Origin: Cloacibacillus porcorum
GTDB lineage: Bacteria > Synergistota > Synergistia > Synergistales > Synergistaceae
NCBI RefSeq assembly: GCF_001701045.1
Contig: NZ_CP016757.1
Span: 186,001-250,000 of the forward strand
DNA: 64,000 bases
Reading direction: 5' to 3'
Shown here: positions 9,291 to 25,559 of the stretch, one piece after another
How positions within the stretch are numbered: position 1 is the stretch's first letter
How the letters are laid out: every line of letters starts with the position of its first letter
Translations under genes and position numbers: made by a program
Notes under the pieces: model-generated
The model's input: the letters and a program-made list of their open reading frames with translations, nothing else
Told to the model about the DNA's origin: nothing
The model's database searches: none

Positions 9291-10289
9291 ATGGATAAAC
9301 CTCTTCTTCATATAATCAGCCATACGGATCTCGACGGCGTCGCGGCGGCGGCGCTCGCCTGGCATGTCCATCACCATGACCGCCTCGTGCGTATCTCGCT
9401 CACCGGGTACGGCGATGTTGACATGCTGATTCTTGAGACGCTCGCGGCGGGACAGGAGCCGCTTGTGCTGGACCTCTTCTGCCAGCGCGAGCAGACGGTG
9501 GACGAGATTGACAAACTATGGAACGACGCCCGCCGTCCCTTCCTCTTCGACCACCACAAGAGCACCTTCGAGCGCTACGGCAACCGCAAGTGGGCCGTGA
9601 TCGACACAAATTACTGCGGGGCCCTCGTCTATTGGCGGTGGCTGCGCGAAAACGCGAAGGATGAACGCACGCAGACGGTGCTTGCGGAGCTCGAACCGGT
9701 GATGAAGATCGCCAACGACCGCGACCTATGGCTCGGAGAGATGCCTGAGAGCCGCCTGTGGCAGGCTCTCGTAACGATGTGCGGCCAGTGGGGCATGCTG
9801 GCGCGTCTGATGGACAACCCGCGCGCGGAGCTCTCTCCCGTGGAGCTGGCCGGCGCGGAGGAGTTCACGGAGCGGCAGGAGGCGCGCTTTGCGCTGGCGA
9901 AGGAGCATATCTGGCGCTCCGGCAGCGAATTGGCGTTTGTCTGCGACGGCGTGCTGGAGTACGGCGACGTCTCCGACTTCTGCGGCTTGATCCTTGACCG
10001 CGACGACAATCCGCCCGAGGTTGCGGCGGTGGCCGCGAAGCGCTTCGGCGGCGACTGGGCGGTCTCGATGCGCAGCCGCGACGGCCTCGCGGGGCGGGTG
10101 CTGGCGCTGCTGAAGGACGGCAAGAAGATCCGCGGCGGCGGCCATGGCGACGCCTCCGCGCTCTATTTCCCGCGCAACTACACGCAGGAGCAGATGCGCG
10201 ACTCGATACTGGCGGCGATCAGGGTCGAGAAGGAGCGCAACGCCGCGCCTAAGGTGACGATCGGCGATCTCTTTAAAGGACTTGTATGA
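9291..10289 (+). CDS. DHH-family phosphoesterase
   Basis: 332-aa cytoplasmic hydrolase. HTDLDGVAAA at residues about 11-20 is DHH motif I, and LFDHHKSTFE near 84-93 is the eponymous DHH motif. A C-terminal DHHA1-type GGGHGDASAL glycine motif lies near residue 285. Such proteins act on short oligonucleotides, cyclic-dinucleotide products or other phosphoesters; the exact substrate is unresolved. Its stop overlaps the start of the next gene (ATGA), indicating a two-gene operon. Confidence 0.88.
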   Translation: MDKPLLHIISHTDLDGVAAAALAWHVHHHDRLVRISLTGYGDVDMLILETLAAGQEPLVLDLFCQREQTVDEIDKLWNDARRPFLFDHHKSTFERYGNRKWAVIDTNYCGALVYWRWLRENAKDERTQTVLAELEPVMKIANDRDLWLGEMPESRLWQALVTMCGQWGMLARLMDNPRAELSPVELAGAEEFTERQEARFALAKEHIWRSGSELAFVCDGVLEYGDVSDFCGLILDRDDNPPEVAAVAAKRFGGDWAVSMRSRDGLAGRVLALLKDGKKIRGGGHGDASALYFPRNYTQEQMRDSILAAIRVEKERNAAPKVTIGDLFKGLV

Positions 10290-11395
10290 AAAAATTAAAT
10301 TCTCTCGCGGTGATATACGCCTCCGAGGGGACGGGCCACCGCACGGCGGCCTTTGCCCTCTGCGAGGCCTTTCTCGCCTATAACCCGCAGGGGCGCGTCC
10401 TCTGCTGTGATATTCTGGATTTCGTCCCCGCGTGGCTCAAATATGTCGTTTCGGAGGGTTATGTCGCGATGGCGCGCCATGCGCCGTGGCTGTGGGGGGC
10501 CTTTTACTGGGGCTCAGACCGTCCCGGGGCGCAGTCCCGGGCATTCGAGTGGGCGCACGAAAGACTCTGCCGCCTCTATCTGCCGAGACTGAAAAATCTT
10601 TTCGCCGCGAACGGCACCGAGGCGGCGATATTTACGCACTATTTCGGGGCCTCCGAGCTGGTGAAGATGGAGGCGGGGCGTATCCCAGTCTACTGCGCCG
10701 ATACCGATTTTGAGAGCCATAGCTTCCAGCGCGGCTCGGAGTTCGCCTGGTCCTTCGCGGGCAGCCCGAACGCCGTGCGGCAGCGTCTCGCGGAGGGGAT
10801 ATACAATGTGAGCGACGCCGGCGTACCAATCGCGCAGAAGTTTAAAAACCTTCTTTCAAAAGAAGAGGCGCGGGCTAAGCTCGGCCTGCCGCAGGACGAA
10901 CGGGTGATCCTCGTCAGCGGCGGCGGCATCGGCGCGGGCTCCGTGTTCAAGGCGGCGAAGTCGCTCGCGGCGCTGCGCGGCACGCGCGTCGCCGTAATTT
11001 GCGGCAGCAACGCTAAGCTGTTCGCGCAGATGAAGGGATATTTCCGCTATAAGAAGAACGTGAGGATAGAGGGCTTCGTCTCCAATATGGAGGATTACTA
11101 CGCCGCCGCCGACGCGGCGGTGATGAAGCCCGGCGGGCTTTCCGCCTCCGAGGCGCTCTGCGCGGGGCTGCCGATGCTGCTCATCGACCCCGTGCCGGGA
11201 CAGGAGGAGTTAAATATGGCCTACCTGACGTCAAACGGCGCCGCCTGGCCCCTGCCGCGCCCCTCGCGCGCGGCGGAGAGCGTCGTCGCGCTCTTTGCCG
11301 GAGAGGCCGCGCAGAGGATGAGCGCGGCGGCCAAAGAGCTGGCAAGGCCGGAGGCCGCGGATGAGATAATCGCAAAAATCGCCGGCGAAGAATGA
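10286..11395 (+). CDS. MGDG-synthase/UgtP-like glycosyltransferase
   Basis: 369-aa GT-B fold glycosyltransferase. The N-terminal domain has YASEGTGHRTAAFAL (about 10-24), the MGDG_synth loop. The C-terminal nucleotide-sugar domain has VSGGGIGAGSV and MKPGGLSASEALCAGLPML, as in GT28 enzymes. Family members transfer glucose or galactose to diacylglycerol, or act as MurG-like transferases. It is probably peripheral to the inner membrane and makes a glycolipid. Translationally coupled to the DHH gene. Confidence 0.85.
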   Translation: MKKLNSLAVIYASEGTGHRTAAFALCEAFLAYNPQGRVLCCDILDFVPAWLKYVVSEGYVAMARHAPWLWGAFYWGSDRPGAQSRAFEWAHERLCRLYLPRLKNLFAANGTEAAIFTHYFGASELVKMEAGRIPVYCADTDFESHSFQRGSEFAWSFAGSPNAVRQRLAEGIYNVSDAGVPIAQKFKNLLSKEEARAKLGLPQDERVILVSGGGIGAGSVFKAAKSLAALRGTRVAVICGSNAKLFAQMKGYFRYKKNVRIEGFVSNMEDYYAAADAAVMKPGGLSASEALCAGLPMLLIDPVPGQEELNMAYLTSNGAAWPLPRPSRAAESVVALFAGEAAQRMSAAAKELARPEAADEIIAKIAGEE

Positions 11396-12280
11396 AAAAC
11401 AATGAAATGGTCATGGAAGGTCTGCTTGCAGAGCGCGGAGAAAGAAAATCAATGGTATATATTTTAGTGGGGACGGACTAGATTATAAAAGAGTGCCGGC
11501 TAATGAAATAAATAACGGATACAGCCTTACCTACGGCTTTGAACAACCCCGTTGCCAAAGTTTTTTGAAACAGCGGCGGCGATACCTCTTGAATCTATTA
11601 GCTCAAAATCGCCGTCGATTTTGAGTTGATATACGCTTCAATGTCAGAATACCCTTAAAATAGACAGAACGATATAAAAAATCCGATTCGTTTACCAGAA
11701 GTTCCAAAGCGATCCTATTCTCCTAGGTCGCGCCAGCGGCAAAAACGGCGATGTATGTTTTTCCAGTCACCATAATACGGCAGCAAATCACGCCATGGTC
11801 CATATTTATCATATTTTCTAGTCTGTTCTGGAACGATCTATCCTGGGGTTCTTCCGTCGCCTCTGGTTTCATTATCTTAGTTTTCTCTCAATAATTGCAG
11901 ATTTTCTACGTATATTTTTCCTCATTATTTTTTTGTAAAGCCTTGATATCACCAGATTGTAGTGTCAAAACCATCAAAATTGGGAATAACACTGGCACAA
12001 TAGTGGGCCTGTCGTCTTTAAGACGGTGGGGATGTCTCTGACGGAACAGCTGTGCATCGTTAGTGGAACGATGGTCCTATTGAGGAAAATATCCATCTCT
12101 GACCCCGCATACCGTAGCACATAGCCCAATGATTATGATGCCTTCAAGCTTGTGGCGTATATTATATTGCCATAGCTTGTTCGCTATGGCAATGTGATAT
12201 TCTGGGCTTTTTTCTTTTAACGTTTTTATTTTTAGCCTTACAGTTTCTCGCTAACCACATAAAAAGCAAATACTATTATT
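11396..12280. other. gene-poor A/T-rich spacer with IS remnant and hairpin
   Basis: About 1.1 kb without an intact gene separates the glycosyltransferase from the selenoprotein cluster. It contains a dead IS5-type fragment (11697-11870) and a hairpin ATTGCCATAGC / GCTATGGCAAT at 12166-12193. Base composition drops sharply from the preceding genes, suggesting an old insertion boundary. Confidence 0.7.
11697..11870 (-). pseudogene. IS5-family transposase N-terminal remnant
   Basis: Minus-strand translation gives KYGPWRDLLPYYGDWKNIHR followed by RFCRWRDLGE, a stop, then DRFGTS. This is the conserved N-terminal domain of IS5/IS1031-type transposases, where Trp normally stands at the stop. Another stop lies upstream after GRTPG. 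No start codon, downstream catalytic domain or clear terminal repeats remain. Confidence 0.8.
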
Positions 12281-12281
12281 G

Positions 12282-12309
12282 GGACATTAGTCCTATGGGA
12301 CATCAGTCC
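12282..12309 (+). promoter_or_regulatory. tandem dyad GGAC-N4-GTCC, candidate operator
   Basis: GGACATTAGTCC is repeated as GGACATCAGTCC, start to start 16 bases, ending eight bases before the -35 box. Two phased dyads next to a promoter look like a binding site for a dimeric activator or repressor. The regulator is unknown. Confidence 0.6.
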
Positions 12310-12316
12310 ACATAAA

Positions 12317-12345
12317 TTGACAGTTCCTTAATTCTGTTTTAAAAT
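12317..12345 (+). promoter_or_regulatory. promoter of the UGSC selenoprotein cluster
   Basis: TTGACA, a 17-base spacer, TAAAAT. It leads into a 160-base leader that contains a short ORF with its own AGGAGG and a separate dyad at 12440-12475. Confidence 0.8.
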
Positions 12346-12439
12346 GACACCATCTCAAGGATACATGGTAGTGAACAAAAAGCTGAACTCCTGCAGGACT
12401 TCGAAAGGAGGTAGTGGGTGTCGAAGGGGAAAGCTTAAA

Positions 12440-12475
12440 ATTTAGTAACAGAAATAATGAATCTTGTTACTAAAT
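12440..12475. promoter_or_regulatory. inverted repeat in the leader of the selenoprotein gene
   Basis: Perfect 11-base arms ATTTAGTAACA and TGTTACTAAAT separated by 14 bases, ending 17 bases before the ribosome-binding site AAGGAGG. It could be an RNA hairpin or an operator for a dimeric regulator. Confidence 0.6.
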
Positions 12476-12506
12476 GTGTTATTGATACTTCAAGGAGGTA
12501 TAAGGA

Positions 12507-14225
12507 ATGTCAGTGGAAAAAGCTCAGAATGTCTCAATGACAATAGTGAATCCTGTGGCTAAAGTCGAATCAAAGACTATAACGCCAGCGGCTAGCTTGA
12601 CTAGCCTTGAAGGAAAGAAGATAGCGTTATGGTGGAATGGCAAGGCGAAAGGCGACATAGCATTAAAAACAATAGCGGCTCGCTTGAAAAAAGAGTATAA
12701 CGTTGAGACCGAATTATTTACTCAGGGCTGGCCTCATGGTGATGAAGTATACGATAGAGTAATTGCGGCGGAGTGCCAAGCGGCCATCGCTACCACAGGA
12801 GACTGAGGATCGTGCACAGCATGGCTTACGCGTGACGTAAGTTCCCTAGAAAAACTTGGTATTCCCACCGTAGGAATTGTAGCCAAAGGATTTTTGCCGA
12901 TTAATGCATCGGAATTCAAAACCAGAGGATTACTGAGAGCACGCAGAGCGGTAATGCCTCATCCTTTCACCGAGATGCCGGAGGAAGAAGTTGCTCAGAC
13001 CGGCGAGGCGCTCTATGACGCCGTAGTTTACGGTTTGACTCATGAAGGCGAGCTCCTCTTTCCGCCGAAGAAAAAAGCCGGCGAGGCCGCCGCGTCAGAC
13101 AAGCCGGTAAAAGAAGTTCCTCTGGAACATCAGGTTGAACCGGAGCGTATAACCATCGAGGGATCAGATTATTTTGATTGGGGCTACAACCTCAACCATT
13201 ATTTCCTTAACCACGGCTGGGGAGACGGATTCCCGATAGTTCCTCCCACCGAGGAAGCTGTTAACCGCATGCTGACTGGCACGAAACGTGACCGTAATGA
13301 AGTTATCCTTAAAATGCAGCCTGGCATGGGGTTGGCCACAGTAGAAAAAATTGCAGCCAACTGCGTCATGGCCGGCTGCGAACCCGCACACCTGCCTATA
13401 ATGATATCTATAATTGAAGCTATGGATGTAGAGGAGTTTGTTTTGACCATCCTGGCCCAGTCCACCGGTGCTCACGCCCCCATACTTCTTGTAAACGGAC
13501 CTATTGCCAAACAGATAGGGATGAACAGCGGAGCATGCTGTTTTGGTCCTGGCAAAGATTCGGCGGCAAATACGGCAATCGGAAGAGCAGTGCGCCTCTG
13601 CATGATGAATATCGGCTTTACATACGCCCGTATACGCGATATGGATACGATCGGCTCTCCGATCAAATACAGTTTCTGCGCAGCTGAAAATGAGGCTGAA
13701 AACCCATGGGAACCCTTCAGCGTCGAAAAGGGATTCAAGCCTGGTCAGAATTGCGTTACGGCAATTCCGTGCCAGTCGCTCATGGAAATAGAGGACATGG
13801 AGAGCGACACGCCGGAAACTCTTCTTCGTACCTTCGCTTCCTCAATAGACTCAATGGGCTGGCTCGGTGCGCGTTCATGGCTGGGCTACGTAACACCTCC
13901 GCGTATGAAGGTGGCATTGCTTCTTGCTCCTGACCACGCCAGAATGATTGCCAACGCAGGTTGGTCAAAGTTCGACGTCAAGCAGTATCTCTACGCTAAG
14001 TGCCGCCGTAAGTGGGGGCAGTTCAAACATCAGGTTATCCCGCGCATCGAAAGCAAGATTGTACTTCCCGGATACAGATGGCTAATCAATGCATCGGATG
14101 ATACGATGGTTCCGATGGTAAGAGACTTCGGCTATTTTGACATCGCGGTAGTCGGCGGAGCTGCCGGAAAGTCAGCTGTGAGCCTTGGCCTCGGTTGGCC
14201 CATAACGAAAGAAATTAAGGATTAA
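12507..14225 (+). CDS. UGSC-family selenoprotein (in-frame UGA at 12804-12806)
   Basis: 572-aa protein read through an in-frame TGA at codon 100. The context is TTGD-U-GSCTAW, the U-G-S-C motif. The downstream frame continues without a break to TAA, and the paralogue at 18107-19789 aligns along its whole length with Cys at this position. An N-terminal Rossmann-like region (KKIALWWNGKAKGD) precedes the redox motif. A large C-terminal domain follows with YFLNHGWGDGFPIVPPTEEA and NCVMAGCEPAH. Sec and the following Cys probably form a selenenyl-sulfide redox pair; the substrate is unknown. RBS AAGGAGG. First gene of the SDR/TRAP cluster. Confidence 0.92.
12804..12843 (+). other. candidate bacterial SECIS hairpin
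   Basis: Directly after the UGA, CTTACG (12825-12830), a five-base loop CGTGA and CGTAAG (12836-12841) form a stem extendable by G-U pairs. It lies 18 bases past the UGA, the distance expected for SelB-recognised hairpins inside the coding region. No such hairpin is needed in the Cys paralogue. Confidence 0.75.
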
Positions 14226-14238
14226 CAGGCACTCTGGA

Positions 14239-14322
14239 AATAACATGGTTATTTGCTGGATCTACGGCGATAGGTACCAGAGTTTACTGTCTTCTATGAG
14301 GTCGTTGTGTGGTCATGTTATT
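14239..14322 (+). terminator. weak inverted repeat after the selenoprotein gene
   Basis: AATAACATG and CATGTTATT pair across about 66 bases. The left arm sequence recurs in the terminator after the paralogous gene (19803), so the two genes seem to have been duplicated together with their 3' regions. Here the hairpin has decayed and lacks a T tract. Confidence 0.4.
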
Positions 14323-14406
14323 CTCTGCCGTTCGACAATTGTAAATTCAGTAAATCTTAAAGAAGTATCGCTCGATACTTCTGTAAAAGATTGACAAAGG
14401 GGAAAG

Positions 14407-15174
14407 ATGAACTTGAAATTAGCTGGTAAAGTCGCTGTGGTTTCAGGCGCAGGAGCGGGCATAGGAAAAGCAGCCGCCTGCCTTTATGCCAAGAACGGCG
14501 CAAAGGTTGTAGTGGCAGTAAGGACACTCAGCAAAGGCGAAGAGACGGTAAAGCTGATTAAAGAAGCGGGTGGAGAGGCCATTCTTGTCCATACAGATGT
14601 GTCTAAGCTCACGGATTTGCAGGATATGATAAAGACAGCGGTGGAAAGCTACGGGAGGCTGGATATACTCTTCAGCAATGCTGGCGTGCCGGGCCCCGGA
14701 GGTCTGGATGAAGTTACTGAAGAGGGATGGGATCAGACAGTTGCCGTGAACCTGAGGAGTTGTTTCTTCAGCGCGAAGTACGCTGTCGAGGAAATGAGAA
14801 AGACAGGCGGCGGCGCGATTGTTTTCGATTCCTCAATTGCCGGAAAAGTCGGCTCTCCCATGAGCCCAGTATATTCTGCAACGAAGGGCGGCATAGTTAC
14901 CCTGACAAAATCTTTGGCTCTCTTGCTGGCGCCGGACAATATCAGAGTTAATTGCGTCTGCCCCGGTCCTATTGATACGAAATTTGTTCGTCAGGCATGG
15001 GATCGCGCACCGGATCCGGATGCCGCTCGTCTCTGCAATGTCAGCGGCGTTGCTCTTGGACGTATGGGCTCTCCTGAGGAAGTGGCTAATGCTGTCCTAT
15101 TCCTATCTTCAGATGAGTCTTCTTATGTCACAGGTACGGCTATGGCTGTAGACGGAGGGTATCTTGCTCGTTAG
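14407..15174 (+). CDS. SDR-family NAD(P)-dependent dehydrogenase
   Basis: 255-aa classical short-chain dehydrogenase/reductase. It has the cofactor loop GAGAGIGKAA near residues 14-23, SNAGVPG near 88, the catalytic Ser in FDSSIAG, and YSATKGG (Tyr-x-x-x-Lys) near 157-161. The C-terminal SDESSYVTGTAMAVDGGY is the usual family end. It probably oxidises or reduces a hydroxyl/keto substrate brought in by the adjacent TRAP system. AAAGGGG precedes ATG 14407. Substrate unknown. Confidence 0.93.
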   Translation: MNLKLAGKVAVVSGAGAGIGKAAACLYAKNGAKVVVAVRTLSKGEETVKLIKEAGGEAILVHTDVSKLTDLQDMIKTAVESYGRLDILFSNAGVPGPGGLDEVTEEGWDQTVAVNLRSCFFSAKYAVEEMRKTGGGAIVFDSSIAGKVGSPMSPVYSATKGGIVTLTKSLALLLAPDNIRVNCVCPGPIDTKFVRQAWDRAPDPDAARLCNVSGVALGRMGSPEEVANAVLFLSSDESSYVTGTAMAVDGGYLAR

Positions 15175-15238
15175 CTTTAACAATATGATAGTCATAAAAA
15201 ATTGACTGAATAAACACTGGACTAAGGGGGATATTCTT

Positions 15239-16219
15239 ATGAAAAAATCTTTCGTGCTCTTTTTGACGTTTGTGCTGTCATTAGCCTTTACGGCTTCCGC
15301 TTTCGCCGCGGGCGCTACCGTTTTAAAGGCAGGTCACAGCGCAACCAACAAGGAACCATACCAGCTTGGTCTCGAAGCTTTCGGTAAAAAACTGAAGGAA
15401 ACGACAAACGGCAAGTTTGAGGTTAAGGTCTTCCCGAGCTGCCAGCTTGGAAGCGAAAAGGAAATGACCGAAGGCCTCTTCCTTGGCAACGTTGACATTG
15501 CTACCTCAGCAACAACGGTGGTAACGAATTTCATTCCGGAGTTCATCGTCTACGACCTTCCCTTCCTCTTCAACAGCGATAAGCATTTCTACGAAGCTTC
15601 TGACGGCGCGCCCGGAAAATTCTTTGTAGACGCCTGCGCGAAGAAGGGCATTCGCCTTTTGGCTATCTACGACGCCGGAGTTCGTCACATCGCGTCCAAA
15701 AAGCCCGTCAACAGCATGAAGGATCTGAAAGGGATGAAGATCAGAACTATGCAGTCCCAAATTCATATCGACGCCTTTAACGGATTCGGTGCGAAAGCGA
15801 CTCCTATGGCCTTCAGCGAACAGTTCAGCGCTCTTGAGCAGGGAGTCATTGACGGAGTCGAAGCTTCAAACACCAGCTGCTACAACCAGCAGTTCTACCG
15901 TCCCGCTCCCAACTGGGCTCTCGTTAGCTGGTACCGCTGCGTCACAGCTATGATGATGTCTGAGAAGAAGTTCCAGTCCTATCCGAAGGATGTCCAGAAG
16001 GCTATTCTGGAAGCTGCCGCTTACTCAGCGAAGGTTGAACGCGAGGCCTATGCAAAGAGCGAAAGCGCCAGCCTGGATGCTATGAAAAAGGCCGGAGTCA
16101 ACATCACGAAGCCTGATGTGGCGCCCTTCAAAGAGGTTGCCCAGAAAGTTGCGGATAAGTATATAAAGAAGCCCGAGCTTAAAGAGGTTCTGAAGCAGAT
16201 CCAAGATATGGGTAAATAA
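15239..16219 (+). CDS. dctP: TRAP transporter substrate-binding protein (DctP family)
   Basis: 326-aa periplasmic receptor. The signal peptide (MKKSFVLFLTFVLSLAFTAS) has cleavage near AFA-AG. Family motifs include KAGHSATNKEPYQLG at the N-terminus, LKGMKIRTMQSQIH with the arginine that usually clamps the substrate carboxylate, and EQFSALEQGVIDGVE. The conserved Arg suggests an organic acid ligand, though this is family inference. It starts the DctP-DctQ-DctM module and lies between the two UGSC genes. Confidence 0.95.
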   Translation: MKKSFVLFLTFVLSLAFTASAFAAGATVLKAGHSATNKEPYQLGLEAFGKKLKETTNGKFEVKVFPSCQLGSEKEMTEGLFLGNVDIATSATTVVTNFIPEFIVYDLPFLFNSDKHFYEASDGAPGKFFVDACAKKGIRLLAIYDAGVRHIASKKPVNSMKDLKGMKIRTMQSQIHIDAFNGFGAKATPMAFSEQFSALEQGVIDGVEASNTSCYNQQFYRPAPNWALVSWYRCVTAMMMSEKKFQSYPKDVQKAILEAAAYSAKVEREAYAKSESASLDAMKKAGVNITKPDVAPFKEVAQKVADKYIKKPELKEVLKQIQDMGK

Positions 16220-16228
16220 TCATCTAAG

Positions 16229-16729
16229 ATGATAAATACACTTGAGAAAATTCTTAAAGTCTGTAGGCTGATTGCCAAGACTGGAATAGTAATCACATTA
16301 TCTTACATGGTAATAGCGATACTTCTTCAGATCTTAGGCCGTTACCTGCCGAACGATATGGATATTTCATGGACCGAAGAAAGCGCCAGATTCGCTCAGT
16401 TATGGATGGTTTTCTTTGGAGCCGGAGTCGCGATGCAGCGCAACCTGCATGTCGGCGTTGACGTCCTTACAGGCGTGCTTAAGGGCACAAGTAAAAAAAT
16501 TCTCGTTGTGCTTTGCGGAATATTTGCCGTTGTATTCCTCGTTGTCGCCATATACGGCAGTTTTGATCTGATCGCCGTCGGCGGCTTACAGATATCCGCG
16601 GCGCTGAACATGCCGATGAGCTATGTATATTTCATAATACCCATCGGGCTGTTCTATTGGCTGATTGAATATGTTGTCTTTAACGCGAAACAGCTAAAAT
16701 CAACGACAGATTCGGAGGCGAAAGAATAA
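16229..16729 (+). CDS. dctQ: TRAP transporter small permease (DctQ)
   Basis: 166-aa inner-membrane subunit with four hydrophobic helices and the family segment DISWTEESARFAQLWMVFFG near residues 50-70. It follows dctP by nine bases, and its stop overlaps the ATG of dctM (TAATG), as usual in tripartite TRAP operons. Confidence 0.93.
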   Translation: MINTLEKILKVCRLIAKTGIVITLSYMVIAILLQILGRYLPNDMDISWTEESARFAQLWMVFFGAGVAMQRNLHVGVDVLTGVLKGTSKKILVVLCGIFAVVFLVVAIYGSFDLIAVGGLQISAALNMPMSYVYFIIPIGLFYWLIEYVVFNAKQLKSTTDSEAKE

Positions 16730-18015
16730 TGTTAGCTCTAATATTTATTCTTTTCGTAGTGGCTATTTTCAGCGGTACGCCGATCGTTTTTGCAATCGGA
16801 ACTGTTTCGGCCGCATTCTTGTATCTCATGGATATTCCGATGAATACGATTGCGATACGCATGATGGCGGGCCTCGACAGCTTCCCCCTGATGGCTATTC
16901 CATTTTTTGTCCTTGCTGGACAGCTTATGGACAGGGGAGGAATTGCACGGCGCATTATTGACTGGACAAGCGCGGTTGTCGGATGGGTAACTGGCAGTCT
17001 TCTCCTGATGACTGTTCTGGCCGGAGCCGGATTTGCGGCAATAACCGGTTCGGGGTCAGCATCCACCGCGGCTCTTTCTTCAATAATACTGCCGGAAATT
17101 CGCAAACGCGGATATGACGTTGATTTCACTGCCGTTATGCTCGCAGCCGGCGGCCTTCTGGGACCGATCATTCCTCCGAGCCTTTTCATGGTGGTTTTGG
17201 CGACCTGTTCACCGATCACGGTCTCTGTGAAGGATCTCTTTATGGGAGGAGTCATACCTGGCATTCTGATGTGCATTGCCATGATGATTTATGCATACCG
17301 TTTTGCCAAGACGCACGGCTCAGCCTACCGCGAGGATAAGCCATTCTCATGGAAAGATGTAATTAAATCTACCATTAATGCTCTGCCCGGGTTCTTAATG
17401 CCGGTCATAGTCGTCGGCGGCATCGTTACAGGAGCCTTTACGGCAACGGAATCAGCCGCCATGGCAGTTTTCGTCGGCCTTGTAGTAGGACTCTTCATCT
17501 ACAGGGAACTAAAATGGTCGGATATTCCTAATATCCTTGTAGATACCGGAGCTATTACAGCAGGTATCATGGTTATTTGCGGAATGGCAAGCGTATTTTC
17601 ATGGCTGATCTCGATCAACAATATGCCGGAGCTCGTGGGCAATTTTATGACCAATTTCTCCAGTTCAAAAATTGTCTTCCTGCTTGTAGTCAATATCTTC
17701 CTGTTGATTGTCGGTTGTTTCATGGAGACCGTCTCGGCTCTTCTGATCCTGATTCCGGTAATAATGCCGATAGCTGTCAACAGCTATGGAATCGACCCTG
17801 TGCATTTTGCCGTAATCGTTGTTATTAACCTTGCAATAGGAACGTTTACGCCTCCATACGGCATCTGCCTCTACGTTGCCGCGGCAATAGCCGGTCGTAC
17901 GATTAAGCAGGTAATGAAGTATGTCTGGGTCCCGATTGCGATATATGTCGGCGCGCTCCTTGTATTTACCTATGTTCCCCAGATTGTGCTTTTCCTGCCG
18001 AACATGGTTAAATAA
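16729..18015 (+). CDS. dctM: TRAP transporter large permease (DctM)
   Basis: 428-aa, 11-13 helix membrane protein forming the sodium-coupled translocation path. Landmarks are FPLMAIPFFVLAGQLMDRGG, AAGGLLGPIIPPSLFMV and NLAIGTFTPPYGICLYV, repeated Gly/Pro-rich hairpins of the ion-transporter superfamily. The length is normal. It completes the transporter with dctP and dctQ. Confidence 0.95.
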   Translation: MLALIFILFVVAIFSGTPIVFAIGTVSAAFLYLMDIPMNTIAIRMMAGLDSFPLMAIPFFVLAGQLMDRGGIARRIIDWTSAVVGWVTGSLLLMTVLAGAGFAAITGSGSASTAALSSIILPEIRKRGYDVDFTAVMLAAGGLLGPIIPPSLFMVVLATCSPITVSVKDLFMGGVIPGILMCIAMMIYAYRFAKTHGSAYREDKPFSWKDVIKSTINALPGFLMPVIVVGGIVTGAFTATESAAMAVFVGLVVGLFIYRELKWSDIPNILVDTGAITAGIMVICGMASVFSWLISINNMPELVGNFMTNFSSSKIVFLLVVNIFLLIVGCFMETVSALLILIPVIMPIAVNSYGIDPVHFAVIVVINLAIGTFTPPYGICLYVAAAIAGRTIKQVMKYVWVPIAIYVGALLVFTYVPQIVLFLPNMVK

Positions 18016-18106
18016 AAAGCTGTTCTCTGAACTATATGCAGCTTCATAGGTACGCAAAGTTATCATGATCATGAAATAAGTGTATGTATTTTGAGGAGGT
18101 ATATGT

Positions 18107-19789
18107 ATGTCAACGGAAAAATTCTCAGCGACAGTAATGAATCCTGTTGCTAAGGTCGAGACAGAGGCTGCTATAACGCCTGCGGCTAGACTGACTTGCC
18201 TGGAAGGTAAGAAAATAGCCTTATGGTGGAATGGCAAGTCAAAAGGCAACGTTGCATTAAACACAATAGCTGAACGCCTGAAAAAGGACTATAATGCTGA
18301 GACAGTGTTTTTTAAACAGGATTTGTTCCACAGCGAAGAGGCCTTCGCTGCCGTGACAGATGCCGGCTGTGCAGCGGTAGTTGCCGCCACGGCAGATTGT
18401 GGCTCAAGCGCAGTTACGCTTACGCGCGACCTGTGCGCCCTTGAAAAAATGGGCGTCCCCACTGTAATGCTTATAGCTAAACCCTTCTTGCTGATAAGCA
18501 ATGCCGAACTGCGCCTCAAAGGGCTCTTTAAAGTCAGCAGAGCAGTAATGGAGCATCCTCTCAACTCACTGCCTGAAGAAGAGGCTGCCCAGGTTGCAGA
18601 TGCTCTCTATGACGCAGTGGTTAAGGGGCTTACTCAGGACGGCGAAGCCTTGGATACGCCTGAGGCGGAAGCTGCAAGGCCCATCGAGGAAAAAGCAGAG
18701 CCTGAGCGTATAACAATTGAGGGAGAAAATTACTTTGATTTCAGCACAAACCTCAATCGTTATTTCATTAACCACGGTTGGAGCGATGGTCTCCCCTTAG
18801 TTCCTCCGACAGAGGCGGCAGTTAACCGTATGCTCTCCGGCACGAAACGCGGACGCGATGAAGTGCTTCTTAAATATCAGCCCGGCAACGGAGTCGCGAC
18901 CATTGAAAAGATTGCGGTCAACTGCGTCATGGCGGGATGCGAGCCTTCGCATCTTCCTGTTGTTGCAGCCGCAATCGAAGCAATGCACAAAGATGGATTC
19001 AACATTACCAGTCTGACACAGTCATCCGGCGCAGATACACCGATGGTGATGGTAAACGGACCTATCGCCAAAGAGATAGGAATGACGGCTGAAGGCGCCT
19101 GCCTTGGCCCCGGCAAATATTCAGCTGTCAATACCGCAATCGGAAGAGCGGTACGTCTTACGATGATGAATATCGGGCATTGCTATCCCAGTATCCGCGA
19201 CATTGACACACTCGGTTCGCCTAACAAATACGCGCTCTGTGCCTGCGAAAACGAGGATGACAACCCCTTCAACGAGCCGTACAATGTTGAAAAGGGATTC
19301 AAGCCCGGAACGAACTGTGTCACGACGATGCCCTGTCAGTCATTTATGGACGTTGAGGACCTCGAAAGCGGCAGACCTGAAGACCTCCTTATGACTATTG
19401 CCTGCACAATAGACACTATGGGATGGCCCGGCGCGCGCAGCTGGATGGGGTTCATCGATCCCAACGTCATGCATGTAACTGTCATCTTTGCGCCTGACCA
19501 TGCCAGGCTGATTACCAACAGTGGCTGGACCAAATTCGACGTTAGACAGTACCTCTATGCAAAGTGCCGCCGTGCCTGGGGGCAGTTCAAACATCTGGTT
19601 ATCCCACGTATTAAAGACGGTACCGTACACCCCGGTTACAGATGGCTTGCCACAGCATCGGATGACACAGAAGTTCCGATGGTAAGAGACCCAAGCTACT
19701 TCGATATCGCGGTTATCGGCGGGGCTGCCGGAAAGTCAGCTCTCTCCATGAACATCGGATGCCCGACAACAGTGGAGATAAAGAAGTAG
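18107..19789 (+). CDS. UGSC-family protein, cysteine form (paralogue of 12507-14225)
   Basis: 560-aa homologue of the selenoprotein, colinear throughout. At the Sec position it has Cys98 in TADCGSS. The second redox Cys of U-G-S-C is replaced by Ser, so this copy has a lone thiol and cannot form the same intramolecular pair. The C-terminal domain (NHGWSDGLPLVPPTEAA and NCVMAGCEPSH) is conserved. It may be a partner subunit or a non-redox paralogue rather than a simple Sec-free backup. GAGGAGG precedes the ATG. It directly follows dctM. Confidence 0.88.
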   Translation: MSTEKFSATVMNPVAKVETEAAITPAARLTCLEGKKIALWWNGKSKGNVALNTIAERLKKDYNAETVFFKQDLFHSEEAFAAVTDAGCAAVVAATADCGSSAVTLTRDLCALEKMGVPTVMLIAKPFLLISNAELRLKGLFKVSRAVMEHPLNSLPEEEAAQVADALYDAVVKGLTQDGEALDTPEAEAARPIEEKAEPERITIEGENYFDFSTNLNRYFINHGWSDGLPLVPPTEAAVNRMLSGTKRGRDEVLLKYQPGNGVATIEKIAVNCVMAGCEPSHLPVVAAAIEAMHKDGFNITSLTQSSGADTPMVMVNGPIAKEIGMTAEGACLGPGKYSAVNTAIGRAVRLTMMNIGHCYPSIRDIDTLGSPNKYALCACENEDDNPFNEPYNVEKGFKPGTNCVTTMPCQSFMDVEDLESGRPEDLLMTIACTIDTMGWPGARSWMGFIDPNVMHVTVIFAPDHARLITNSGWTKFDVRQYLYAKCRRAWGQFKHLVIPRIKDGTVHPGYRWLATASDDTEVPMVRDPSYFDIAVIGGAAGKSALSMNIGCPTTVEIKK

Positions 19790-19802
19790 TATACTAGAAT
19801 GG

Positions 19803-19878
19803 AATAACATGGTCACTTGCCGTGTGCCTGTCATTGAACTGTGCCCTGCAAAAGGCAAGTTGACCATGTTATTTTTGC
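19803..19878 (+). terminator. terminator after the Cys-type UGSC gene
   Basis: AATAACATGGTcACTTGCC pairs with GGCAAGTtgACCATGTTATT and is followed by TTTTT. It separates the transporter/UGSC unit from the NifU-like gene. Confidence 0.85.
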
Positions 19879-19934
19879 TGTATCGAGAATCATTTAAATT
19901 TCTAATTGCTTTTGACTTCTCTGAAGGAGGAATA

Positions 19935-20195
19935 ATGGTGGTAGATAAGGAAGTAGTAAAGAGCGCATTAGAGCCGCTCGAAGAGAGTTTCGCATCAGAT
20001 GGTTCCAAAATTGAGATTAGCTCAATTGAAGGCAACACAGTTAATATTAAAATTGTAGTTTTCCCCGGCGGCTGCCGCGAGTGCATCCTTCCTGCCGACT
20101 ACCTTGAGGAAATGTTTAAGAACAATATAGAAGAAGAGGCAGAGGAAGAGGTTCAGGTACACGTTGAAATAGAAGACCACTCTAAAGAACATTAA
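19935..20195 (+). CDS. NifU C-terminal-domain-like small protein
   Basis: 86-aa cytoplasmic protein resembling the NifU C-terminal (Nfu) domain: VKSALEPLEESFASDG, a beta region, then GGCRECILP with the Cys-x-x-Cys that carries an iron-sulfur cluster in Nfu proteins. The acidic C-terminus is not typical. Start ATG 19935 follows GGAGG. The position suggests cluster delivery or a redox/selenium role for the UGSC proteins; this is inference. Stand-alone Nfu domains are otherwise general Fe-S carriers. Confidence 0.75.
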   Translation: MVVDKEVVKSALEPLEESFASDGSKIEISSIEGNTVNIKIVVFPGGCRECILPADYLEEMFKNNIEEEAEEEVQVHVEIEDHSKEH

Positions 20196-20445
20196 GGTCT
20201 GTTGTTTCTATTTTAGCTCTTAAATTAAACCTAAATCGAATACCTTAGCTGAGACATTTACCCTCATACAAGCATCTGTCAGTTAAAGCTGACGTTTATG
20301 TTTAAAGCTGCGGCATGTACTTTTTCCGGTAAAATTTAGTGCAAACTATATTTTTTACCGGAAGGAGTATATGCCACAATAATTTAGATTTGATAAATTA
20401 ACAATGAATTGCAGTTAGCTTTAATGTGCGTAAAGGAGAGATATT
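20196..20445 (+). promoter_or_regulatory. leader region of the hydantoinase gene with a strong dyad
   Basis: Contains perfect 11-base arms TTCCGGTAAAA (20324-20334) and TTTTACCGGAA (20353-20363). The right arm merges into GGAAGGAG followed by ATG CCA CAA TAA, a three-codon ORF with a good ribosome-binding site. The dyad may be an operator or an attenuating hairpin. Confidence 0.5.
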
Positions 20446-21849
20446 ATGGAATCTGAAAAATGGGTCATCAAGAACGGCACCATCGTCAATCCTGAATATG
20501 GTGAAATTAAAGCTGACATTAAAATTGAAAACGGGATTGTTACCGCAATCGGAAGAGGCCTTTGTGAGGAAGGCTGTAAGGTGTATGACGCAGCTGATAA
20601 ATATTTGTTCCCGGGGTTTATAGATACTCATGTTCATCTGGGGAATTTTAATTCCTTTGAAGACGACTGCCGCTCTGAAACGATATCAGCCGCGGCAGGC
20701 GGAGTTACGACTGTATGCCAGATGGCAAAAGCTTCAAAACTTACGAAATTTAGGCCGCCCCAGACCAGCTACCATGAAGTTCTGGATGAAATAACAGACA
20801 TAATTGACAATAATTCTTCAGTTGACATCGCCTTGCATCTTAACTTAAGCTCTTATGAACAGATAGATGAAATAGCCTCCTATGCGGAGCTCGGCCATAC
20901 CTCATTCAAGTTCTTCATGAGCTACGTAGGTATGGAGGGGGCTATTAAAATGGGGGCTATCGGAGTAAGAGACGGCATTATATATGCCGCCTTAAACAAA
21001 GTTTCCGAAGTGCCCGGCACATTGGCGATTGTACACTGTGAAAATGACGACCTTATTGAATTTTTCCAGAGATCTATGACGGAAAAAGATAAAGAAAATA
21101 TATCCTTTTCAGATTTTGCTAAGAGCCGCCCCTCTATAGCGGAAGCGGAAAATATACACAGACTGCTATATTACGCCGCTGAAACGGGGGCAACAGTCTA
21201 TGTGCCGCACGTATCTTCCATAAAAGCCATAAACGTTGTGAAAGAAGCGCGTAAAAACAGCGGCGTGAAGGTATTCGTAGAAACCTGTCCCCAATACCTT
21301 GTACTGACTCACGAAGAGGCAAATAAAATGCCCGGAGCAATTGCTAAGGTTACCCCAACAATGCGGAACCGGGAAACATTGGATTATTTGTGGGAATGCA
21401 TTAAAGATGGAACTATAAATACCATTGGAACAGACCATTGTTCTCTGGGCCTCGACAAAAAGAAAAGTGTATGGTACAGCCCTGGCGGTTTTCCTGGAAT
21501 TGAAACTATAGCTCCTTTAATTATTACCGAAGCAAGAAAAAGAGGTATTTCTTTACAAAGAGTTTCGCAAATTCTTTCTTACAATGCGGCGAAAATTTTT
21601 GGGATGTTGCCTAGAAAAGGGACTCTTCGAATTGGAGCCGATGCAGATATTGCAATTTTAGACTTAAACAAAGAAGTTACAATTAAAGCTGAAAACCTTC
21701 ATTCCTCAAGTACATTTACTCCCTATGAAGGTTTTAAAACAAAGGCTTATGTTGAAGCAACTTTCTTACGTGGGGATCTAATATGGAGAGACGGTGATTT
21801 ACTCAAGGCAAAGACAGGTAAAACGGTATTAAGAAAGCCGCTAGAATAA
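20446..21849 (+). CDS. dihydropyrimidinase/hydantoinase-like amidohydrolase
   Basis: 467-aa cyclic-amide hydrolase of the D-hydantoinase/dihydropyrimidinase/allantoinase group. Metal ligands are visible: His62 and His64 in DTHVHLG, the lysine expected to be carbamylated (Lys155 in TSFKFFMSY), His197 (VHCEND), His255 (VPHVSS) and Asp in GTDHCS. It would open a five- or six-membered cyclic amide (hydantoin-like) to an N-carbamoyl acid. It lies downstream of the UGSC/TRAP genes with its own leader, so its substrate may be what the TRAP system imports. Slightly longer N-carbamoyl processing genes are absent locally. Confidence 0.88.
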   Translation: MESEKWVIKNGTIVNPEYGEIKADIKIENGIVTAIGRGLCEEGCKVYDAADKYLFPGFIDTHVHLGNFNSFEDDCRSETISAAAGGVTTVCQMAKASKLTKFRPPQTSYHEVLDEITDIIDNNSSVDIALHLNLSSYEQIDEIASYAELGHTSFKFFMSYVGMEGAIKMGAIGVRDGIIYAALNKVSEVPGTLAIVHCENDDLIEFFQRSMTEKDKENISFSDFAKSRPSIAEAENIHRLLYYAAETGATVYVPHVSSIKAINVVKEARKNSGVKVFVETCPQYLVLTHEEANKMPGAIAKVTPTMRNRETLDYLWECIKDGTINTIGTDHCSLGLDKKKSVWYSPGGFPGIETIAPLIITEARKRGISLQRVSQILSYNAAKIFGMLPRKGTLRIGADADIAILDLNKEVTIKAENLHSSSTFTPYEGFKTKAYVEATFLRGDLIWRDGDLLKAKTGKTVLRKPLE

Positions 21850-21979
21850 CCTAATCCAAAGTTTTTTTATAAAGCTATGGTAATCGGCACTTTGACTCCG
21901 CCTGGTAACGTCAGATTTTTGAGTTGGTGCTTGAAATTTTAGGAAAAATGCTTTTTTCAGTGGCGATTATATTAAAAAA

Positions 21980-22265
21980 ATGAAATACGATAGGAATATT
22001 TTAAGTGAAAGAATGATACAGACGCGCGGCAAACACTCGCAGGGCGAGATGGCAAGACGCTTTGGTATAACGCAGGCATACCTCAGCTAGATAGAGGAAA
22101 AGGTTTCTGGCAGCAAGGAGCTGTTGTTTCCCTCTGTGCAAAACAATGACCTGTCGGTCTATTCCCCCGCGCAGTTGGCGGTGCAGCTGAAAAATTCTTT
22201 TGTAACACATCCCTTTGTAATAATCACAGAAAAGGCCCATATGGAAAATTGTCTTAGATATTCTA
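21980..22265 (+). pseudogene. truncated copy of the XRE/S24-like regulator
   Basis: Starts MKYDRNILSERMIQTRGKHS and keeps the HTH up to AYLS, then TAG where the intact homologue at 24859-25524 has Glu. The middle is deleted. It resumes with FVTHPFVIITEKAHMENC-like sequence and then degenerates. The copies share upstream bases as well, so this is a duplicated, decayed regulator in direct orientation on the other side of the protease genes. Confidence 0.85.
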
Positions 22266-22328
22266 CGACTTGTTCGAGGTTTACACAGAATCGGGGATAA
22301 TCTCGAAGGATCAAGAAACATAAAAGAC

Positions 22329-22362
22329 GGGGCGTACCGTGAAGGCACGCCCCGCATTTTTT
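22329..22362. terminator. bidirectional terminator
   Basis: GGGGCGT and ACGCCCC form a hairpin with A/T runs on both sides (GCATTTTTT on plus, AAAAG-complement on minus). It lies between the regulator pseudogene and the 3' end of the subtilase gene. Confidence 0.75.
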
Positions 22363-22383
22363 CAGTGAGGATTATCTCTGGAG

Positions 22384-24147
22384 CTATCTTTTCTTTTTGA
22401 AAAATGCCACAGCCATGACTGACAACAGCGCCACAAATGGGATTCCGCCGTTGCATCCGCTGCTGCCGCCCGACGGCTTAGGCGTGGGAGTCGGAGCAGG
22501 AGCCCCGGCTTTCATCGCCGCGCCGAGGTCAAGCATTCCGTATGCGGATTTGCCTTCCTTGGCGAAATTCTTGTCGGCGTTGTTGAGCAGAAGCTCCTTT
22601 ATCTCTCCCGCCGTCTTATCTGGATAGGCCGCGCAGAGCAGCGCCACCGCACCGGTTACGTGCGGAGCGGCCATGGAGGTACCATTATACTTTCCATAAA
22701 GATCCTCTGACGTTACCTTGCCGTTAAGCCAAACGTACCTTGGGAGAGTGCTCATAATCGCCGCGCCTGGCGCTGCAATATCAACGTAATTTGGACTGTA
22801 ATTGGAAAAATCACACCATGATTTATCGGCGCTGACTGCTCCGACGGTGATTAAATTAGCCAGCTTAAAGCATGCGGGAACACATATTTTCCATCTATAA
22901 TCTTCTTTGGGGTTATAGGGATCGCTGCCTGGCCCTCCGGGTGCGTCCAAATTTTGAAATTCATTGCCGGCGGCGGCGGCGAGAATCACGCCGGCATCAG
23001 ACACAGCCTTGAATGCCACATAATAAGGGTCGTCTTCAAGTTCATATTGATATGGTGGCGTGTACCAACCTCCCCAAGACATATTGACGGCGCGGATATT
23101 CAGTCCTGCCTTTTTCTGCTGAAGGATTATGTTCAAACCTTCGATTATTTGTCCAGTAGAGAATCCATCTGTATCGATACATTGTACTTCATTATTATTA
23201 TCAAGGGTTACGTTGGTCATACCGATGCCAAGTAACCTGACCTTCCAGTTCACGCCGGTGACGCCCAGGCTATTATTTCCTACAGCGCCGATAGTTCCTG
23301 CCACATGGGTCCCATGGCTGTCGAGATCCCCCCATGAATCTAAACGCACGTCATCAGGGTCGAATTGTCCGCTTATTTTTTTAGTGTTAGTACCTATAAA
23401 TTCCTCTGTATCACCACTCTTCTTATAAATATCGTATATTTGAAGAACCCCGCATCCCGCGTAATTGCCATTGAAAGTTCCCAGATTGCCCGCTAAGTCT
23501 TCGTGTTCATGGTCGATGCCTGTGTCTAGAACGACAACGTAGACATCTTCCTTACCCGTCGTTTTATCCCACGCGGAGGGAGCGTTTATTGCGCTTAGGC
23601 CCCACATTTCGTTATACATTGGGTCGTTGGGGCTGGCTGCGGCAGACATGTTTTGCCCGCTTGCCTTCTCATTTTCCACATTCTTTGCCGTAGAAATATA
23701 GTGTATATAATTAGGAACGGCGCTCAATACGTTGCTGTCTTTTTTCAGCTCTTTAATCAGCTCTTCCGTCGTCTTCTCGTTGGAATAGATCATCATTACT
23801 ACCTTATCAGAATTAATTGACACGGCATCGTAAGTGGCTGCGAGAACGGCGTTTGCAGACCTGGCAACGCCGGCGCTGACGTTGTTGATTTTGTCGAGCG
23901 CCTGCGTGTGAGACATTTTTGATAACGTAAGGCGGTCTTGCTGCGGTTTTTTTGCTACTACCAATACGCTGCCTTCAATATATCTCCCCTTAGAAAAGGC
24001 CTGATTGACAGCCGTGTTGTCGCCGGATGAAATCTTGTCCAAATTTAATTTAAAGTCATATTTGGTTCGTTCCTGCCCAAATGCTGATACACAAAGTATT
24101 ACTAACAAAAATAGAGACAACACCAGTCTCTTCATCTGTTTATTCAT
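22384..24147 (-). CDS. secreted S8 (subtilisin-like) peptidase with Synerg-CTERM tail
   Basis: About 587-aa exported serine protease. It has a signal peptide (LVLSLFLLVILCVSAFG), an inhibitor_I9-like propeptide about 55-155, and a catalytic triad: Asp in VVLDTGID (about 208), His in SHGTHVAG (about 278), Ser in NGTSMAAPH (about 491), with oxyanion Asn in AAAGNEF. A Pro/Thr linker precedes SGCNGG, a hydrophobic helix and FKKKR, read as Synerg-CTERM. ATG 24147 has GGAAAGG nine bases ahead; ATG 24156 is too close. It probably acts at the cell surface. The gene immediately upstream encodes a free propeptide homologue. Confidence 0.93.
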   Translation of the reverse strand: MNKQMKRLVLSLFLLVILCVSAFGQERTKYDFKLNLDKISSGDNTAVNQAFSKGRYIEGSVLVVAKKPQQDRLTLSKMSHTQALDKINNVSAGVARSANAVLAATYDAVSINSDKVVMMIYSNEKTTEELIKELKKDSNVLSAVPNYIHYISTAKNVENEKASGQNMSAAASPNDPMYNEMWGLSAINAPSAWDKTTGKEDVYVVVLDTGIDHEHEDLAGNLGTFNGNYAGCGVLQIYDIYKKSGDTEEFIGTNTKKISGQFDPDDVRLDSWGDLDSHGTHVAGTIGAVGNNSLGVTGVNWKVRLLGIGMTNVTLDNNNEVQCIDTDGFSTGQIIEGLNIILQQKKAGLNIRAVNMSWGGWYTPPYQYELEDDPYYVAFKAVSDAGVILAAAAGNEFQNLDAPGGPGSDPYNPKEDYRWKICVPACFKLANLITVGAVSADKSWCDFSNYSPNYVDIAAPGAAIMSTLPRYVWLNGKVTSEDLYGKYNGTSMAAPHVTGAVALLCAAYPDKTAGEIKELLLNNADKNFAKEGKSAYGMLDLGAAMKAGAPAPTPTPKPSGGSSGCNGGIPFVALLSVMAVAFFKKKR

Positions 24148-24170
24148 CCTGTTCATCCTTTCCGTATGTT

Positions 24171-24560
24171 TTACATAGTATCCAGTCTGTTTATATAGTT
24201 TGGCCTCACGTTTATGACGTCCGGTTCTGCGCTAAGCCTTTTAATGATCTGTACCGTAGTCAAGGTGTCCGAATGCATGTGAATATAAAGTTTTCCTCCG
24301 CCTTCGGCGGGGAATACGATATACGAGACAACTTCCGCGTCGGCTGTCTCCGCCAAACGTTTTGCCTTTTCAGATATGATCCCGTCAAATAAGGTTTTAT
24401 CTTTTTTTTCTAAATTTGTTTCCTCCTCCGTTATAATTACAAGCATAAGAACACTGCCTTCGACATACTCACGTAAAGTCCTTTTGTAACTTTCCGCCTG
24501 AGCGCCTATAGCTGACAGAGAAACAGCGATCACAAACGCAAATATAAAAACCTTGTGCAA
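24171..24560 (-). CDS. secreted free-standing subtilase propeptide (I9-like) homologue
   Basis: 129-aa protein with a signal peptide (VFIFAFVIAVSLSAIGAQA). The mature part aligns with the propeptide of the neighbouring subtilase: YVEGSVLMLV matches YIEGSVLVVA, and LSAEPDVINVRPNYINRL matches LKKDSNVLSAVPNYIHYI. There is no protease domain. It probably acts in trans as an inhibitor or folding helper of the protease encoded 23 bases downstream. The only usable start is TTG 24560, with GGGAGG some 13 bases ahead. Confidence 0.8.
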   Translation of the reverse strand: MHKVFIFAFVIAVSLSAIGAQAESYKRTLREYVEGSVLMLVIITEEETNLEKKDKTLFDGIISEKAKRLAETADAEVVSYIVFPAEGGGKLYIHMHSDTLTTVQIIKRLSAEPDVINVRPNYINRLDTM

Positions 24561-24858
24561 ATGAGATTTTCAACCTCCCTCTTGTGGACGATACCGTCCA
24601 CTTTCAACGATGCGCAGGATTTTGCATCATGCTGTGCAATTTCCGTAGAACTATTCTTTTTTATGGCAAAATAACAACAATAACCACCCTTTATAAGGTA
24701 ATTTCATGATAAAGGTGTATTGTTTTGTAAAAACGTAAAATTACTGGAACAAGCGCTTATGCTTATTTTAGCTATTAGCTTAATTATGTCAATGCTTATA
24801 GCTAAAATTGAGTTAAAAACTGTTGGCAAGTCAATCAGCTGTCAGCTATATTGAAAAA

Positions 24859-25524: not shown

Positions 25525-25559
25525 TAAAACCACGGTGCCGCGCGCGGATAGAGAAAGGG

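Follow-up and report, generated by a model that had tools for sequence, protein, structure and literature searches.

The UGSC selenoprotein family, together with the fusion of its UGSC domain to a second domain named Unknown_1, was described in 2008 by Zhang and Gladyshev, who gave it no function, although a thioredoxin (Trx)-like fold and a redox role were proposed (PMC2398784). In metagenomes, UGSC proteins rank among the most frequent prokaryotic selenoproteins, and they have been without an assigned function ever since. A second relevant system comes from Cloacibacillus porcorum, whose strain MFA1 carries the fluoroacetate reductase farACEB, which comprises a selenoprotein of the GrdB type (GrdB being protein B of glycine reductase) and has its own transporter (PMC10838667). 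This work deals with a stretch of 64,000 nucleotides of C. porcorum (positions 186,001 to 250,000 of contig NZ_CP016757.1, denoted here as the window) and, specifically, with an island in it (12507..21849) in which two UGSC-type proteins, UGSC1 and UGSC2, flank a short-chain dehydrogenase/reductase (SDR) and a TRAP importer. The host genome, a single contig of 3,585,187 bases, is that of a gut-type anaerobe of the phylum Synergistota. All the genes that a sequence-only reading had placed in the island were found there on the plus strand. That reading also regarded the island as an undescribed pathway, which is fair for its function, but the family of UGSC selenoproteins and the fusion with an unknown domain had both been described in 2008 (PMC2398784). 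The evidence presented below supports the notion that UGSC1, the SDR and the TRAP importer constitute one unit, organized around a selenocysteine (Sec) domain that is distantly related to that of GrdB.

The UGSC domain and its relation to GrdB

UGSC1 (12507..14225; as for all the genes of the island, on the plus strand) is a selenoprotein of 572 residues, made of a UGSC domain (approximately residues 13-178) fused to a partner domain (approximately residues 215-555). Its Sec codon, a UGA at 12804..12806 corresponding to U100, opens the U-G-S-C motif. UGSC2 (18107..19789) is a Cys paralogue of 560 residues, with the same two domains and a C-G-S-S motif (ADCGSS). Both proteins pass the Pfam UGSC model PF24696 (110.3 bits for UGSC1 and 97.2 bits for UGSC2, with a cut-off of 25), and both fall below the cut-off of 125 bits set by the more stringent NCBIfam equivalog model NF041046 (93.7 and 80.5 bits, respectively). 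Among 119 aligned UGSC domains, the motif reads UGSC in 102, CGSC in 11 and UGTC in one, while CGSS occurs solely in UGSC2. UGSC1 thus fits the family rule of Sec or Cys in the first position and Cys in the last, whereas UGSC2 does not. Three relatives have neither Cys nor Sec at this place, the motif reading MGTS or MGVS. These Cys/Sec-free UGSC/partner genes lie at 11980-13704 of L009, 9737-11422 of L011 and 4057-5676 of L155, and in Sporomusa and Vibrio this subfamily adjoins aconitase X and DUF126 genes.

The relationship to GrdB emerged from several comparisons. With the UGSC1 domain as query, phmmer matched a GrdB open reading frame (ORF) from Synergistota (L016) with an E-value of 4.8e-4, and the Pfam UGSC model weakly matched four Synergistota ORFs, all four of which are GrdB proteins with a UGA of their own. 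Using hhalign, a UGSC profile built from 19 sequences matched a set of ten GrdB sequences with a probability of 97%, and one built from 140 sequences did so with 97.5% (E 6.9e-12), the UGSC-family motif being placed on the U-G-T/S-C motif of GrdB. The controls comprised 17 unrelated families, none of which exceeded 1.9%; for the GrdE-like family the value was 33%. These profile comparisons identify the UGSC domain as a remote homologue of the GrdB Sec domain. The weak matches in other Synergistota had also been considered as possible UGSC genes, and were discarded because the proteins are GrdB. The host genome itself encodes nine GrdB-type genes (PF07355; L018-L026): a UGA is present in the Sec motif of six of the eight full-length genes examined, and some of these six read U-G-S-C-T-R-C-G, resembling UGSC.

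The predicted model of the UGSC domain (pLDDT 68, pTM 0.67) displays a five-stranded, Rossmann-like alpha/beta arrangement, in which the motif opens the helix that follows strand 3. Its best Foldseek matches are generic Rossmann-like structures, with E-values not below 1.6e-4, and no Trx chain is found among the top matches listed for this model, a result that does not exclude a Trx fold. The model provides moderate evidence for a Rossmann-like fold, which would disagree with the Trx-like one put forward in PMC2398784. Sequence searches of the PDB yielded no match for UGSC1, for the partner-domain profile or for GrdB.

The partner domain, which spans about 340-370 residues in UGSC1 and UGSC2, has no Pfam match, and no relative was detected by hhalign among the families compared nor, by profile, in any PDB chain. 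Against the GrdE-like profile the probability was 0.1%. The domain is strongly conserved at D240, G241, T248, G331, N355, R360, E394, W401 and G550. An AlphaFold2 prediction of full-length UGSC1, made with three sequences, reached a pLDDT of 32.

Linkage of UGSC genes to SDR and TRAP genes

Between the two UGSC genes lie the SDR gene (14407..15174; PF13561, 6.5e-64) and those of a complete TRAP importer, consisting of the substrate-binding protein DctP (15239..16219; PF03480, 2e-71), the small permease DctQ (16229..16729; PF04290) and the large permease DctM (16729..18015; PF06808, 1.4e-102). DctP is at most 36% identical to the other DctP proteins compared and displays the invariant Arg of the family within the sequence KIRTM.

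The genomic neighbourhood was surveyed in 119 UGSC loci, fetched from plasmids and genomes and screened with local profiles; since the survey used a 6 kb limit and small seed profiles and included related genomes, its neighbour counts are minimum and non-independent ones. In another phylum, DctP/DctM genes are found on the same strand and within approximately 220 bp of UGSC/partner-domain genes at six loci, so the possibility, contemplated in the sequence-only reading, that UGSC genes never accompany TRAP genes does not hold. One of these six, L201, presents on one strand the order DctP-SDR-UGSC(Sec)-DctQ-DctM, that is, the five parts found in the window in a different order. L139 and L140 show the arrangement UGSC(Sec)-DctP-DctQ-DctM, L196 and L197 that of UGSC-DctP-DctM, and L198 that of UGSC-DctP at the end of a contig. 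Because the genomes carrying L139 and L140 (G481 and G484, of 4.7 and 5.6 Mb) contain just 14 and 12 DctP genes, respectively, same-strand adjacency within 300 bp would be expected by chance with a probability of about 0.001 per UGSC locus. SDR genes, in turn, directly abut UGSC/partner genes in L032, L037, L144 and L165, and in L003, a metagenome-assembled genome (MAG) of Synergistes, the start of an SDR gene directly follows the UGSC1 homologue, at the point where the contig ends. These observations support the inclusion of UGSC1, the SDR and the TRAP importer in one unit. A second Sec, suggested by the two TGA codons of the L196-L198 homologues, was rejected, as the second TGA is the stop codon of a separate UGSC gene.

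Other importers are also found near UGSC genes, namely ABC systems, seen through their family 5 binding proteins (15 loci), TTT (four) and TAXI (three), and class III CoA transferases occur near 26 of the 119 loci. Thioredoxin-reductase-like genes are close to UGSC at eight plasmid loci, lying beside thioredoxin in Arthrobacter, and at none of the MAG loci. In haloarchaea and one bacterium (L007, L031, L035, L036 and L086), DUF6282 genes are repeatedly found next to UGSC/partner genes, often in the company of genes for CoA transferase and LLM flavin enzymes, and are likely to represent another functional partner.

As for the distribution of the family, strong UGSC matches, mostly with one in-frame UGA, were obtained in 59 of the 95 genomes of one other phylum, and a broad genome sample added ten more genomes with UGSC outside Synergistota. 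A tblastn search of plasmids revealed UGSC and partner domains, either fused or encoded by adjacent genes, in haloarchaea, Actinobacteria, Proteobacteria and Sporomusa, with Sec forms encoded on plasmids of Acidovorax sp. T1 and Paracoccus versutus. In the conjugative IncP plasmid of the former (L008, 8640-10310), the fused gene with its UGA is annotated merely as a short hypothetical protein that ends at this codon. The only match of a single-protein search of genome contigs was the Synergistes MAG (L003), a class-level search around G211 covered three genomes, and the viral contigs searched contained no relatives.

The sequence-only reading had proposed that UGSC1 and UGSC2 might be complementary subunits. 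The two proteins are 63% identical and form, together with the L003 homologue, a single clade (support 100), in which UGSC2 branches outside UGSC1 and L003 (support 99). This implies that the duplication predates the Cloacibacillus-Synergistes split of UGSC1 or that the gene was transferred. The sister clade is composed of fused Sec proteins, including those of the TRAP-linked L139 and L140. Paired units are recurrent, as two or more partner domains are found within the fetched stretch at 34 of the 119 loci, and a partner-UGSC-partner arrangement is seen in haloarchaea. The proposal therefore fits this recurrence, but the two copies in the window derive from a lineage-specific duplication. A hetero-oligomer of UGSC1 and UGSC2 can be considered a reasonable prediction.

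Upstream of UGSC1, a consensus scan identified as the best site of the region a promoter-like sequence (TTGACA-17-TAAAAT, 12317..12345, plus strand) with 11 of 12 consensus positions, which is not evidence of function.

A proposed uptake-and-reduction operon and competing explanations

The model that we favor, with belief and doubt roughly in balance, is that UGSC1-SDR-DctP-DctQ-DctM-UGSC2 represents a horizontally acquired uptake-and-reduction operon, in which an imported acid would undergo a GrdB-like reductive cleavage by UGSC1, with UGSC2 as its partner. Briefly, the TRAP importer would bring an organic acid anion into the cell, where it would be bound by the Sec domain of UGSC1 together with the partner domain. 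The selenolate would then attack a carbon of the substrate and expel a leaving group (an amine, halide, thiol or similar), and the neighbouring C103 would resolve the adduct as a selenenyl sulfide. With the re-reduction of the latter by cellular thiol systems, the net reaction would amount to a two-electron reductive cleavage, which could serve as an electron sink. UGSC2, having lost both the Sec and the resolving Cys, would be the partner subunit of a hetero-oligomer, and the SDR might handle a hydroxyl or keto group before or after the cleavage. A thiol- or selenol-dependent reductive cleavage had been suggested from the sequence alone and is plausible from the homology to GrdB; the chemistry itself we infer, as we do the resolving Cys, the roles of UGSC2 and the SDR, and the class of substrate. 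The latter would be a carboxylate, given the TRAP importer and the invariant Arg of DctP, a residue that in TRAP binding proteins is carboxylate-binding. The role proposed for C103 follows the analogy of D-proline reductase, in which a nearby Cys closes a selenenyl sulfide that is re-reduced by thiols. It is realistic to consider leaving groups that are not amines, because the host species reduces fluoroacetate with a GrdB-type selenoprotein.

Several facts weigh against this model. PF07355, the N-terminal GrdB domain, gave no match in UGSC1 or UGSC2 at E-values up to 10, and no member of the GrdE/PrdA-type proprotein family is found among the genes of 9291-21849. No relative of the partner domain could be detected, so that catalysis may rely on machinery other than that of GrdB. 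The linkage to TRAP genes is a minority arrangement (9 of the 119 loci). UGSC homologues exist in aerobic bacteria and haloarchaea, which indicates that the reaction does not depend on anaerobic respiration. Finally, some of the thioredoxin-reductase-like matches may be other FAD/NAD(P) oxidoreductases, and such matches occur in plasmid loci only.

A wider notion, which we advance only tentatively, is that the UGSC domain and its partner define a class of their own, separate from the glycine and proline reductases: reductive lyases that depend on selenium or thiols and are widespread, being present in anaerobes, aerobes and haloarchaea. In such a class, interchangeable substrate modules would each possess their own importer (TRAP, ABC, TTT or TAXI), the partner domain would be a new catalytic fold, and the pairs would be hetero-oligomers with one redox-active chain.

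A different explanation, which we judge rather unlikely, is that UGSC1 and UGSC2 are thiol/selenol redox or repair proteins (acting as a peroxidase, in disulfide reduction or in the detoxification of an electrophile entering with the substrate), the SDR being the enzyme that actually catabolizes the imported acid. Sec-Cys pairs with U-x-x-C spacing are typical of thiol oxidoreductases, and both the Trx-like fold and the redox role proposed earlier (PMC2398784) agree with this possibility; the relatives devoid of Cys and Sec in the motif, which imply that function is possible without redox chemistry, have been counted in its favor as well. However, GrdB is the relative indicated by sequence, the fold is predicted to be Rossmann-like and not Trx-like, importers and acyl-CoA or SDR enzymes, and not stress genes, make up the constant neighbours, and the partner domain contains invariant charged residues (D240, R360 and E394), as would be anticipated for a substrate-binding or catalytic domain.

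The sequence-only reading extended the unit up to position 21849, thus including two more genes. The first encodes a small Nfu-like protein with a CxxC motif (CREC; 19929..20195), which matches PF01106 only marginally, with 27.3 bits for a cut-off of 27. The second (20446..21849) encodes a hydantoinase/dihydropyrimidinase-like amidohydrolase that clearly belongs to the dihydropyrimidinase/allantoinase superfamily and remains below every specific equivalog cut-off shown (for TIGR02033, 320 vs 393.25 bits). That the whole stretch serves a single cyclic-amide pathway, with import, ring opening and reductive cleavage, seems to us improbable. It is true that all the genes share the same strand, that the entire stretch is missing from the syntenic site of a congener and is bracketed by remnants of one repressor gene, and that amidases are found near 9 of the 119 UGSC loci, with dihydropyrimidinase-like genes a few kb at most from two or three UGSC loci; these genes (L180, L182, L176) are only 27-29% identical to that of the window. 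In contrast, an orthologue of the hydantoinase with 82% identity is found in G167, a genome without UGSC, where its neighbours are different (queuosine-reductase-like, as judged by eye). Its G+C content (0.417; 0.38 at third codon positions, GC3) is unlike that of the UGSC1-UGSC2 part (0.45-0.52, GC3 0.49-0.62), the Nfu-like gene having about 0.42. A gap of 251 bp with a weak terminator-like hairpin separates the two genes, the Nfu-like gene is present at none of the other UGSC loci surveyed, and TRAP substrate-binding proteins typically bind carboxylates. Consequently, neither gene is supported as a member of the unit, and nor are creatinine or hydantoin as its substrates.

The congener mentioned above (G137) lacks the stretch 11,519-25,552 at the syntenic site. 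Remnants of an XRE/S24-type repressor gene lie at 11515-11616 (inverted) and 21968-22250, and an intact copy at 24823-25524. As the remnants sit at the left end and at about 22.0-22.25 kb, the insert was probably built in pieces, pointing to a stepwise course of insertion or recombination here. Near position 11550, a short N-P-V-A-K-V match was considered as the remnant of a third UGSC gene and rejected as a degenerate inverted piece of the repressor gene. Within the region absent from G137, the minus strand also carries a gene for a subtilisin-like serine protease and a propeptide-like ORF (22384-24156 and 24171-24560).

Returning to UGSC1 as a selenoprotein, its reading frame passes a single TGA, within the sequence T-G-D-U-G-S-C-T, and the host genome encodes both SelB (380 bits, cut-off 242) and tRNA-Sec (77 bits, cut-off 47). 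The L003 homologue, which is 88% identical, has the same UGA. Downstream of this codon, the comparison of both genes gave a dN (nonsynonymous divergence) of 0.055 and a dS (synonymous divergence) of 0.75 (dN/dS about 0.07), which indicates that this part is translated. In the 42 nt starting at the UGA, 40 positions are identical between both genes, whereas other windows of this size average 36 and only 16 of 445 reach 40. These 42 nt contain a conserved 7-bp hairpin (GCUUACG-CGUGA-CGUAAGU, 12824..12842), just 3' of the UGA, which suggests a bacterial Sec insertion sequence (SECIS); it is suggested rather than shown, because the folding energy and its z-score were not significant against shuffled sequences and no covariation was observed. 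A true stop at this UGA, in a gene that is decaying or codes for a 99-residue protein, might find some comfort in that folding result, but it is hardly credible in view of the purifying selection past the codon, its preservation in frame and inside the family motif in L003 and most homologues, and the presence of SelB and tRNA-Sec.

Comparison with known systems

The homology to GrdB, together with a recurring operon containing a complete importer, offers a concrete and testable route to the function of UGSC. If the proposed model is correct, the GrdB-type reductases would gain a large class reaching aerobic bacteria and archaea, and unknown substrates would be added to the electron sinks of gut Synergistota, among which fluoroacetate already figures.

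With the described UGSC/Unknown_1 fusion (PMC2398784) and the PF24696/NF041046 family, UGSC1 shares the UGSC domain, the U-G-S-C motif and a second conserved domain, possibly the same as Unknown_1. The window differs in that its proteins score below the NF041046 cut-off and in that two fused copies, one of them with CGSS, flank a TRAP importer. No link of UGSC to GrdB or to TRAP and SDR genes was found in the open-access literature searched, and the selenoprotein reviews in it list no UGSC function. As in the window, farACEB (PMC10838667) combines a selenoprotein with a transporter in C. porcorum, and it reductively cleaves a substituted acetate. However, farB is a genuine relative of GrdB that has farE as its partner and an MFS transporter, and farACEB has no SDR, TRAP or UGSC-type protein. 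GrdB and PrdB (PF07355) possess a Sec-containing domain that is homologous by profile comparison, with their U-G-T/S-C motifs in register with that of UGSC, and have in common with the UGSC unit the import or supply of small acids. In contrast, UGSC1 and UGSC2 contain no PF07355 domain and have no GrdE/PrdA-type neighbour, being fused instead to an unrelated domain, and UGSC1 (UGSCTAW) lacks the second Cys of GrdB (UGTCTRC/UGSCTRC, that is, U-x-x-C-x-x-C). Lastly, the importer shares with the DctPQM TRAP transporters all three subunits and the invariant Arg of DctP, while what distinguishes the set in the window is its linkage to UGSC and an SDR.

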